In this document: in pieces, positions 34,126 through 55,571 of the stretch
Layout of the letters: each line of letters opens with the position of its first letter
Position numbering within the stretch: position 1 is the stretch's first letter
IMG/VR virus record: IMGVR_UViG_3300029319_000002
Coordinates: 79,110 to 143,109 of that record
Direction: 5' to 3' (one strand)
DNA length: 64,000 nucleotides
Source: a virus
Notes under the pieces: generated by a model
Told to the model about the DNA's origin: nothing
Database searches by the model: none
Seen by the model: the letters and a program-made list of their open reading frames with translations, nothing else
Made by a program: the position numbers and the translations under genes

Positions 34126-34150
34126 ACAAATAAAGGACCAAGTTTTTAAC

Positions 34151-34186
34151 ATGAAACTTATCACAGAAGAAATCGAATCAGTTTAA
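34151..34186 (+). pseudogene. Duplicated 5' end of gp21, stops after 11 codons
   Basis: The first 32 bases (34151-34182) are identical to the first 32 bases of the intact gp21 gene (34537-34568). Here the frame reads MKLITEEIESV and stops at once. It retains a ribosome site and late promoter upstream. It is best read as a scar of insertion of the next gene into the gp21 start region. Confidence 0.85.
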
Positions 34187-34199
34187 GAAAAATATAATT

Positions 34200-34508
34200 A
34201 TGCCAGGACCATTTTTTAGATTTACAGATGAAGCAGAATGGTTAAATGCTGCTCGTGCTGCTGGTTTTATGATTACTGTTACCGATGGAGAAGGTAACGA
34301 AACTGAACAACTACAAGCATATACAGCAAATTATGCTATTGATGTTATTGGAATAATCTGTGAAGGTGGTGAATGGGATGATGAAGGTAACGTAACTGTA
34401 GAACCAACAACATTGAGTGGATGGCATGTTAATTATCTTGGAGACCTTCCAACAGGATGGGAATCTTATGAAGTTACACCAGCAACTCCTCATAGAGTGT
34501 TCGCATAA
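34200..34508 (+). CDS. Small inserted protein ahead of gp21
   Basis: This 102-residue acidic protein has an N-terminal helix (FTDEAEWLNAARAAGFMI), a beta-rich middle with DGEGNETEQ and GGEWDDEGNV, and a C-terminal GWHVNYLGDLPTGWESY ending in TPATPHRVFA. I recall similar small proteins beside structural or fibre genes of other phages, but I cannot assign a function. It sits precisely between a truncated copy and the intact copy of the gp21 start, so it is probably a recent or mobile addition. The GTTTAAG junction lies 18 bases upstream. Confidence 0.65.
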   Translation: MPGPFFRFTDEAEWLNAARAAGFMITVTDGEGNETEQLQAYTANYAIDVIGIICEGGEWDDEGNVTVEPTTLSGWHVNYLGDLPTGWESYEVTPATPHRVFA

Positions 34509-34515: not shown

Positions 34516-34536
34516 CTTATTAAAAGTGTAGATAAA

Positions 34537-34568
34537 ATGAAACTTATCACAGAAGAAATCGAATCAGT
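34537..34568 (+). repeat. Second copy of the 32-bp gp21-start direct repeat
   Basis: Identical to 34151-34182; the repeat period is 386 bases. The first base after the repeat differs (A here, T in the first copy), which fixes its right edge; sequence to the left of the ATG is not shared. Confidence 0.9.
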
Positions 34569-52093: not shown

Positions 52094-52101
52094 ATTATGA
52101 A
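52088..52101 (+). promoter_or_regulatory. Candidate RegA operator at the gp44 start
   Basis: AACTAAATTATGAA covers the gp44 start codon and matches the gp45 site in 12 of 14 positions. AAATTATG is, from memory, also found at the T4 gene 44 RegA site. Confidence 0.5.
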
Positions 52102-53044
52102 TAACACTGACTTTCTTTGGGTTGAAAAATACCGTCCTCAGACAATTGAAGACTGTATTCTTCCTGATGATATCAAGAAGACATTTCAGGATTTTCTAGA
52201 TGCTGGAGAGATTCCTAATCTCTTGCTCTCTGGTCCTCCTGGAATTGGCAAAACTACTATTGCAAAAGCACTCTGTAATGAACTAGGGGCAGACTATTAT
52301 GTCATCAATGGATCCGATGAAGGACGATTTTTGGACACGGTTAGAAACCAAGCAAAGAACTTTGCTTCGACCGTATCACTTCAAGCGTCTTCTAAACACA
52401 AAGTCATCATCATTGATGAGGCAGATAACACAGGGAACGATGTACAACTCCTCCTACGGGCAAATATTGAGGCATTTTATAACAATTGCCGATTCATCTT
52501 CACCTGCAACTACAAAAACAAAATCATCGAACCACTTCACTCCCGATGTGCCGTCGTTGATTTTGCCACAACCTCAAAGGATCGACCACGTATCGCAGCA
52601 TCCTTCTTCAAAAGACTCCAGCAAATCTTGGATGCAGAAGGTGTTAAATTTGATAACAAGGTCTTGGTAGAACTCGTTAATAAGCACTTTCCTGACTTCA
52701 GGAGAGTTCTTAATGAGTGTCAACGGTATTCTGTTGGTGGAAGCATTGACAGTGCCATTCTTGCCTCTTTCAGTGATGTATCAGTAAATGAACTTATCAA
52801 CCATCTCAAAGATAAAAACTACGCTGAGGTCCGAAAGTGGGTCGTTAATAACCTGGACAATGATCCTAATCTGGTTCTTCGTCGTGTTTACGATGCTCTT
52901 GCGAGTGCCGTGGATGGTCCTTCTCTTGCTGCTGCTGTGCTCATTATTGCTAAATATCAGTACCAAATTGCCTTCGTAGCAGACCAAGAAATTAATCTGC
53001 TCGCAGCATTAACTGAAATCATGGTGGAGTGTGAATTCAAATGA
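52097..53044 (+). CDS. gp44: Clamp loader large subunit gp44
   Basis: This 315-residue AAA+ ATPase has Walker A SGPPGIGKTT near residue 45, Walker B VIIIDEADN near 105 and the SRC motif HSRCAVVDF near 151. With gp62 it loads gp45. Its size matches T4 gp44 (319 residues). Its 3' end is the left copy of a 24-bp repeat that flanks the HNH gene, and it overlaps that gene by ATGA. Confidence 0.95.
   Translation: MNNTDFLWVEKYRPQTIEDCILPDDIKKTFQDFLDAGEIPNLLLSGPPGIGKTTIAKALCNELGADYYVINGSDEGRFLDTVRNQAKNFASTVSLQASSKHKVIIIDEADNTGNDVQLLLRANIEAFYNNCRFIFTCNYKNKIIEPLHSRCAVVDFATTSKDRPRIAASFFKRLQQILDAEGVKFDNKVLVELVNKHFPDFRRVLNECQRYSVGGSIDSAILASFSDVSVNELINHLKDKNYAEVRKWVVNNLDNDPNLVLRRVYDALASAVDGPSLAAAVLIIAKYQYQIAFVADQEINLLAALTEIMVECEFK
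53021..53044 (+). repeat. Left copy of repeat flanking the HNH gene
   Basis: The last 24 bases of gp44 match 53711-53734 at 22 positions; the shared core is TGAATTCAAATGA. In both copies the final ATG opens the next gene. Confidence 0.85.
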
Positions 53045-53724
53045 TAAATATTTTTGGAGAAGAAGAGTTTAAACAAATTGTTAGATTTGGAGTAGAAATT
53101 CCTAATTACTTTATATCAAAAGACGGTAGAGTTTATAGTAAAAAAAGTAATATAATTAGAAAACCTACCATTAGAGAAAGGAATGGAAGGGTGGATCATG
53201 TTAGAATCTCTATTCCTATTTCAGAAGGATTACTTCCTAATGGTTATGATTATAGAAAATTTGGATCTGGGAAGAATGTGTATGAACTTCCAACCACAGT
53301 TCATAGAGCTGTGATGGAAACTTGGAGACCCATTGATGAATATCCTCCAGATAGATTAAAAGATGATTGGGATAATGCTCCAGAATCATTTAAACAATGG
53401 GTAAGAGAAACAGCTTTCATTGATCATATTGATGATGATCCAACAAATAATCATGTAGATAATTTACGTTGGGTAACACCTAGAGAAAATTCTGCTTATA
53501 TTAAACATAAGTTTGATGAAAAAAGAAAAAAAGAAAAGGATACTGAAGAATATGATGAAGAAAGAATGAAAAAAAGGAGGGATGCAAGTAGAAGTTATTA
53601 TCATCGAGTACAAAAATTTAAACCTCAAACAGAAAAAGAAAAAGCAAGGAAAAGACGATGGTATGAAAAAAATAGAGATAGAATTTTATTAGAACAAAAA
53701 ACCAAAAGAAATGATGGAGTATGA
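53041..53724 (+). CDS. HNH homing-type endonuclease
   Basis: This 227-residue protein has a NUMOD4-like start (IPNYFISKDGRVYSKKSN), VHRAVMETW near residue 87 and the HNH core IDHIDDDPTNNHVDNLRWVT with PREN at residues 127-150. The C-terminal 75 residues are Lys/Arg-rich and probably bind DNA. It is more AT-rich than gp44. It sits between gp44 and the following genes with duplicated junctions, as expected for a free-standing homing endonuclease like T4 Seg/Mob. The catalytic His129 is present, so it may be active. Confidence 0.85.
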   Translation: MINIFGEEEFKQIVRFGVEIPNYFISKDGRVYSKKSNIIRKPTIRERNGRVDHVRISIPISEGLLPNGYDYRKFGSGKNVYELPTTVHRAVMETWRPIDEYPPDRLKDDWDNAPESFKQWVRETAFIDHIDDDPTNNHVDNLRWVTPRENSAYIKHKFDEKRKKEKDTEEYDEERMKKRRDASRSYYHRVQKFKPQTEKEKARKRRWYEKNRDRILLEQKTKRNDGV

Positions 53725-53734
53725 ATTCAAATGA
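53711..53734 (+). repeat. Right copy of repeat flanking the HNH gene
   Basis: It covers the last 14 bases of the HNH gene and the start of the next gene. Differences from 53021-53044 are at the 4th and 11th bases (G to A in both). The period is 690 bases. Confidence 0.85.
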
Positions 53735-53913
53735 CTGAAGAAGAATTAGAACGTGAACGATATATTGATGATGATTATAATGTTATAAATCATTATTATC
53801 GTGCCAAATATTGGCATCCTGACATCCCATTCTTCCTCCAAGATGAAAATGGAGATACATATGAATTTGGATGGAAACTTATTTACCAATACATTGAGAA
53901 GTTAAATGACTAA
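53731..53913 (+). CDS. Small acidic protein (60 residues)
   Basis: MTEEELERERYIDDDYNVIN followed by YYRAKYWHPDIPFFLQDENG. It is not recognised. Before the HNH insertion its ATG would have overlapped the gp44 stop, so it is the original gp44 neighbour. It overlaps the next gene by eight bases. Confidence 0.5.
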   Translation: MTEEELERERYIDDDYNVINHYYRAKYWHPDIPFFLQDENGDTYEFGWKLIYQYIEKLND

Positions 53914-54930: not shown

Positions 54931-55200
54931 ATGAAATCCTTAGCACTTGCAATCGCATCATTGTTGATTGCTGCTCCAGCAATGGCACATCCTAGATCTC
55001 CTAGAACTAACTGGACTTATTCTTATCCAGAAAAAGATGTAATGGTTAGGAGGGATTGGAGACGTTGTGAGAAAATTAAATACATTACCAAATATGATAA
55101 GCATGGATGGTATACTGAAAGAAAGGTGACTCCACTGAGATCCTGCTGGAAGCATAGCCATCATCATCGTAAACCTCAAGTTAAAGTGATTATTAAATAA
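54931..55200 (+). CDS. Small secreted/periplasmic basic protein
   Basis: This 89-residue protein has a classical signal peptide, MKSLALAIASLLIAAPAMA, with cleavage after Ala19. The mature part is basic and His/Trp-rich (RRDWRRCEKIKYI, SCWKHSHHHRK) with two cysteines about 25 residues apart that could form a disulfide. It has its own late promoter. An envelope role during late infection is inferred. It touches the gp62 start by one base. Confidence 0.65.
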   Translation: MKSLALAIASLLIAAPAMAHPRSPRTNWTYSYPEKDVMVRRDWRRCEKIKYITKYDKHGWYTERKVTPLRSCWKHSHHHRKPQVKVIIK

Positions 55201-55571
55201 TGGAACTTAAAGACTGGTTGAATTCGATCAACTTTACCAAGGAAGATCTTTCGGAGGATATCAAACAATATGCTCCCTTCGTAATTAATAAATGTATGTC
55301 TGGTCACATCGATACTGTGATGTATGCAAATGAGATGAATATGGCACATCATCTCAGTAAGGACATGCAATATCAGTTTTTTATAAATATCGTTAGGAAA
55401 CGGAAACGGTTTGCACCTTGGCTCCGTAAAAACAGTATCGAAGATATTTCTGTAGTACAAAAATATTATGGGTATAGTTTTGAAAAAGCACAACAAGCAC
55501 TCAAGATCCTTTCAAAAGAACAAATTGATTACATAAAGAAAAAGTTTGACCTTGGGGGTAAAAGTAAATGA
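55200..55571 (+). CDS. gp62: Clamp loader small subunit gp62
   Basis: This 123-residue protein lies directly before regA, as in T4. YAPFVINKCMSGHIDTVMYA, NEMNMAHHLSKDMQYQFF and RKRKRFAPWLRK are characteristic. It is shorter than T4 gp62 (187 residues), as usual in cyanophages. It forms the 4:1 clamp loader with gp44, from which it is separated here by six inserted or accessory genes. It overlaps regA by ATGA. Confidence 0.9.
   Translation: MELKDWLNSINFTKEDLSEDIKQYAPFVINKCMSGHIDTVMYANEMNMAHHLSKDMQYQFFINIVRKRKRFAPWLRKNSIEDISVVQKYYGYSFEKAQQALKILSKEQIDYIKKKFDLGGKSK

Follow-up and report, generated by a model that had tools for sequence, protein, structure and literature searches.

Gene order and repeat behind gp44

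The window analysed here, a stretch of 64,000 nucleotides, comes from a 196-kb T4-like virus record in which gp44, gp62 and RegA are recognisable, and among annotated phages it most closely matches those of Synechococcus and Prochlorococcus. Between the clamp-loader genes gp44 and gp62, a free-standing HNH endonuclease gene lies between two copies of a short repeat. The features of this interval, together with one open reading frame near gp21, are as follows:

52097..53044, + strand: gp44, clamp-loader AAA+ subunit, 315 aa, the host gene of the junction (Pfam AAA 3e-19, Gp44_lid 8e-16; hundreds of gp44 matches)
53021..53044, + strand: upstream copy of the 24-nt repeat, forming the 3' end of gp44, with J as its final 19 nt (53026-53044) (repeat search; position weight model edge at GGAG)
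53041..53724, + strand: inserted free-standing HNH endonuclease gene, 227 aa (ORF; Pfam HNH_3 3.5e-9; PHROG HNH endonuclease 1.6e-16; I-HmuI fold match)
53422..53490, + strand: HNH catalytic core, codons 128-150, DHIDDDPTNNHVDNLRWVTPREN (H129, D131, N136, N137, N141, W144 and N150 invariant in 16 relatives)
53711..53734, + strand: downstream copy of the 24-nt repeat, with the J copy as its final 19 nt (53716-53734) (repeat search; at least 43 distinct copies in relatives)
53731..53913, + strand: next gene, 60 aa, no assigned function (joined directly to gp44 in >35 empty loci)
55200..55571, + strand: gp62, clamp-loader partner and far boundary of the variable gp44-gp62 interval (Pfam Phage_clamp_A 4e-11)
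34200-34508: 102-aa ORF before gp21 (PHROG 18574, no assigned function, non-nuclease)

The preliminary description had reported that the last 24 bases of gp44 recur at the end of the HNH gene, and a repeat search confirmed this, with 22 of the 24 bases identical between 53021-53044 (ATGGTGGAGTGTGAATTCAAATGA) and 53711-53734 (ATGATGGAGTATGAATTCAAATGA) at a spacing of 690. Given the base composition of the window, 2e-6 matches of this quality are expected by chance in 64 kb and 7e-8 in 2 kb. It had also been claimed that a stop/start overlap is kept on both sides of the insert. This holds for the left side, where the HNH start overlaps the gp44 TGA (ATGA at 53041-53044), but not for the right side, because the HNH gene stops within the second copy (TGA, 53722-53724), 6 nt short of the ATG of the next gene (53731). 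The right-hand copy supplies the HNH stop as well as the GGAG and ATG of the next gene, the latter out of the HNH frame.

If the HNH gene was inserted, HNH-free relatives would be expected to carry the junction once, a check that the preliminary description had proposed. Among the contigs found with the 60-aa next gene, gp44 adjoined this gene via one ATGA junction in more than 35, each with a single copy. The closest gp44 relatives of the window (loci gathered for comparison carry L numbers) were L116 (95.8% identity), whose site holds another HNH gene together with a J copy, and L155/L156 (~94%), which are empty and belong to the single-copy loci. A near-isogenic pair of filled and empty sites, L140/L149, was 82 to 97% identical in gp44 per 100-column bin (mostly 93 to 97%) and 89 to 100% identical in the right flank. 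Since the empty relatives join gp44 to the same next gene with one copy, the reading of the locus as an insertion with a duplicated junction stands.

The Pfam HNH_3 match of the inserted protein was above the cut-off, and the core motif DH.D....NN...NL.WV....N was invariant across 16 aligned members of the window-HNH family. The predicted structure (pLDDT 84) had a sole significant fold match in the PDB, I-HmuI (E 1e-4), while a PDB sequence search with the protein found no relative. The two have the fold match in common; the host gene and the phage differ.

The joint J and the genes in front of its copies

The common unit of the junction copies was a 19-nt sequence, termed J (GGAGTGTGAATTCAAATGA), which ends gp44 and shows wobble variation among loci. 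It contains GGAG, stop codons in two frames and the ATGA that ends gp44 and opens the next gene. Using a degenerate J pattern, we found 218 occurrences in the gathered loci. Of these, 169 mark the gp44 end and 40 follow gp44 at distances of up to 4 kb; the remaining 9 comprised 4 copies on contigs without a gp44 3' end (L129, L147 twice and L239) and 5 occurrences that would fit the end of gp44 itself close to the edge of a contig. The J pattern scan by which part of the loci had been found disallowed G two bases before GGAG, and its counts are lower bounds. The extra copies collected numbered at least 43 distinct ones, whose detection needed the full 19-mer, so that shorter copies, perhaps one in L074, would be missed. 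In the gathered loci, mostly chosen near gp44, J was confined to the gp44 3' end and the sequence following gp44, and with 0 matches outside the gp44 region of such loci, a role of J as a general cyanophage ribosome site was not supported.

When the 43 copies were scored with a position weight model of gp44 ends, the scores turned from strongly negative to strongly positive exactly at GGAG, and the same edge was seen when only the 17 copies were considered whose loci had been gathered independently of that J pattern scan. The copies were near-perfect and did not fade gradually, as 32 sites had no mismatch, 7 had one and 1 had two, after which only background was reached. The upstream frame stopped in or just past J in 34 of the 43 copies (gp44 frame, 15; +1 frame, 14; third frame, 5), indicating that J often ends the insert and at the same time provides GGAG and ATG for the next gene, whose translation it presumably drives. 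An explanation at the protein level, in which insert C termini are conserved as ECEFK, was ruled out, since J is read in all three frames. In several phages, e.g., L227, L237, and L280, gp62 directly overlaps J at the gp44 end. J-flanked inserts were also present in two cultured phages, DSL-LC03 and S-8S53.

In two loci, a second J was observed with essentially no insert, directly behind gp44 in L255 (2963-2981) and 17 nt behind it in L145, and in both the own end of gp44 had lost its ATGA. These double joints look like the meeting point of two gp44 lineages or the footprint of a deletion.

The genes in front of the J copies encoded HNH_3 proteins in the window, L007, L116/L013, L138, L100, L213, and L216, and a protein of the Pfam HNH family in L306. 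Endonuclease VII inserts were found in L005 and L215 and, by resemblance, in L301. PD-(D/E)XK inserts were assigned by Pfam in L004 and L218 (both below the curated cut-off) and in L219, while the inserts of L243 and L246/L302 were PD-(D/E)XK-like by motif only. The L287 insert was GIY-YIG-like, with a weak PHROG match to homing endonucleases. No nuclease match was obtained in any library for L271 (a 2OG oxygenase), L309 (a metalloprotease-like ORF), L064, L298, and the MKK family. MKK proteins (~127 aa) are encoded before J in L192, L197, L198, L201 and, by resemblance, L295; they had no Pfam or PHROG match, and the structure model (pLDDT 62) was too poor to classify them. MKK genes were also observed directly behind gp44, at L192 1251-1634, L194, and L196-L202.

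Pfam nuclease families accounted for 11 of 24 J-flanked inserts compared to 4 among 89 next genes lacking a J copy (Fisher, 3.5e-6), a test that is approximate because the first set was trimmed by hand and the second covers 89 of 107 distinct proteins. Across these sequences, which come from T4-like phages and chiefly from marine cyanophages, J copies recur behind many mobile nuclease genes that are unrelated to one another, and the HNH gene of the window is one clear example.

Other genes were seen behind gp44 among the 89 next genes scanned. Three encoded a DruA-like protein of 370 to 383 aa (PF14236; L039, L060, and L049), a close relative of which is encoded behind the J copy in S-8S53 (L005 4313-5464). 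Ten encoded a Cpn10 (GroES-like) chaperonin, which is often found directly behind gp44 in more distant T4-like contigs; by reading the sequences, example loci were L204, L209, L214, L240, L248, L259, L267, L276, and L316.

Mobility of the inserts and direction of duplication

In every pair compared, dS was lower for the insert than for gp44, with values of 0.28 versus 1.58 for L192/L194, 0.05 versus 1.31 for L201/L199 (MKK), and 0.10 versus 1.02 for L246/L302. The L013/L116 inserts had a dS of 0.087 with gp44 saturated, as it was in four pairs altogether, and some of the gp44 stretches in these comparisons were short (38 and 51 codons). MKK-J units preceded four differing genes and HNH-J units two. 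Furthermore, the window and L116 carry different HNH genes despite their 95.8% identity in gp44 and 94 to 98% identity in the right flank. The low insert dS, the varied next genes and the window/L116 comparison together indicate that the inserts move between gp44 backgrounds, and by the dS measure they are much younger than the gp44 they adjoin. The window gene combines an HNH_3 domain with invariant H and N residues and an I-HmuI fold, a position between conserved genes that is empty in L155/L156 and the other single-junction loci, and mobility between host-gene backgrounds (insert dS 0.40 versus gp44 dS 2.30 for window/L007). These properties point to a mobile, free-standing gene of the homing-endonuclease type, with putative cleavage activity.

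A comparison of L213 with L223 showed that the downstream J of L213 keeps the native GAGTTCCAATGA while the J at its gp44 end differs, which fits a foreign upstream and a native downstream copy. The reverse was found in L005, L116, and L197, where the upstream J was native-like and the downstream J differed, and there is therefore no single direction of duplication. Derivation of each copy from its own gp44 was also considered and not retained, own and copied J alleles being only weakly correlated (P 0.07-0.21). Over the last 50 nt of the window gp44, identity to the closest relatives drops to 80 to 82%, with a cluster of mismatches from -46 to -34 (P 1.4e-4 and 4e-3, for a region picked after looking). 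This cluster could be a conversion tract; most other pairs tested were without one.

Relatives of the window HNH protein were also encoded behind uvsX (L016, L018, L021, and SynMITS9220M01) and behind the AdoMet (S-adenosylmethionine) decarboxylase-like gene speD (L022 and L026), with an ATGA overlap but no duplicated junction. The gene at L323 2001-2531 belongs to this group of relatives, likewise with the overlap and without a copy. In L008 and L087, members of the family even lay behind gp44 without a copy. These cases rule out the duplication as an automatic result of insertion by this HNH family, for which a copy is evidently not required; the copy therefore belongs to the gp44 joint rather than to the enzyme.

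A second small gene in the window with a duplicated core-gene junction had been taken to suggest one shared mechanism. The second case does exist, as 34147-34182 and 34533-34568 are identical at 35 of 36 positions and flank the 102-aa ORF before gp21, the prohead protease gene. Here, the first 33 nt of gp21 plus flanking bases are duplicated upstream of the ORF. The leftover is the 5' end of the downstream gene and not the 3' end of the upstream gene, the opposite of the gp44 geometry, and neither the copy nor the ORF was found in any of 80 gp21 relatives (0/80). For these reasons, a common mechanism for the two cases was not supported.

Possible origins of the joint and relation to known systems

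We consider it fairly probable that the HNH gene of the window is mobile and occupies a recurrently used insertion joint, with the 19-bp J serving both as a short homology and as a stop/start adaptor. The hot spot would be the gp44 downstream junction, centred on J and occupied by many mobile genes. A nuclease would break the empty gp44 allele, the left end would be repaired from the donor through gp44 homology, bringing the insert in, and the right side would be joined at J, through J-J pairing or where the DNA is broken immediately before J. Recombinants in which J precedes the next gene would survive because J supplies a ribosome site and start as well as the end of the insert, and the non-nuclease inserts would either be passengers or have the same cassette design. 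Several observations count against this explanation, namely the J-flanked inserts without a nuclease match (MKK, the 2OG oxygenase, L064, and L298), the double J of L255/L145, the weak correlation between own and copied J alleles, the mixed direction of duplication and the copy-free HNH cases. The sharp GGAG edge, too, could come from time and selection on the ribosome site.

The left edge of the copies at GGAG, and their being either near-perfect or absent, would indeed be accommodated if ragged illegitimate recombination behind gp44 had occurred and selection had kept J for its function only, the nucleases having no part in making the duplication. The HNH family behind uvsX and speD without a copy agrees with this, as does the known translational coupling of the T4 clamp-loader pair, given in the review PMC2988022 (citing Torgov 1998). 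However, selection of this kind leaves unexplained why nucleases are enriched, why close homologues of an insert have arrived repeatedly next to divergent gp44 genes and why longer gp44 remnants are absent, and we regard it as rather unlikely. We find it improbable that an element brought a replacement gp44 3' end with its nuclease, entered just upstream of J and pushed the native J downstream. While the native allele GAGTTCCAATGA in the downstream J of L213, a like layout in Glomus and Allomyces (PMC3630166) and the -46 to -34 mismatches in the window gp44 would fit such a displacement, L005, L116, and L197 are reversed, and the mismatches, a region selected post hoc, stop short of J on its upstream side. 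Although the loci come largely from metagenome contigs, chance or an assembly artefact can for practical purposes be set aside, given 2e-6 expected matches in the window and at least 43 distinct copies, and is refuted by the cultured phages DSL-LC03 and S-8S53.

Returning to the insertion joint, its nearest precedents are T4-like intronless homing (PMC2988022) and fungal mitochondrial C-terminal duplications (PMC3630166). According to PMC2988022, the free-standing homing endonuclease genes mobA-E and segA-G of T4-like phages move by intronless homing; like the inserts described here, these HNH or GIY-YIG genes lie between core genes and are optional among relatives, and the start of mobE overlaps the upstream stop (UAAUGA). 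Unlike in the passages of that review considered here, a host-gene 3' end is copied behind each insert here, and many unrelated nuclease families share one joint. In the mobile ORFs of Allomyces and Glomus mitochondria (atp6, atp9, cox2, and nad3), the host 3' end is duplicated behind the nuclease gene (PMC3630166), as seen in the window from the 22/24 repeat and the empty sites. A longer C-terminal part is replaced there, whereas the copy described here is 19 to 24 nt long, does not amount to a sizeable portion of the host's C-terminal coding sequence, carries the start of the next gene and lies behind unrelated nuclease families. Some J-flanked inserts share the Endonuclease VII motif with F-CphI and related cyanophage homing endonucleases (PMC6083498); F-CphI, however, targets psbA, and the window gene is of the HNH_3 type. 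Nucleases have also been found to mark boundaries of genetic exchange between phages (PMC10448857), a likeness to the present case, although the passages considered describe no joint of the J kind.

A literature search, with most subscription papers outside its reach, found no paper pointing to the gp44 J joint. PeSL regulatory cassettes reportedly mediate modular shuffling in T4-type phages. PeSLs are promoter/stem-loop units; they resemble J as short shared regulatory sequences acting as gene-shuffling sites, whereas J is the 3' end of a coding sequence and contains GGAG, a stop and a start.

More tentatively, and with some doubt, J may be a dedicated joint through which the gp44-gp62 interval of marine T4-like phages works as an integron-like cassette site, and several unrelated homing-nuclease folds may have converged on it; MKK, with its insert dS of 0.05 against a gp44 dS of 1.31, may then be a further, undescribed class of mobile nuclease. 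If this were true, any gene joined to J would gain a stop in two of three frames and hand the next gene a ribosome site and start.

Free-standing homing endonucleases are known to be mobile, and the joint links this mobility to a precise and repeated junction sequence; it also suggests a route by which genes may enter an essential replication operon without silencing the next gene. Because dozens of natural filled and empty alleles exist, insertion next to essential genes becomes testable. J would also serve as a simple sequence tag for finding new mobile families, such as MKK, in marine phages.
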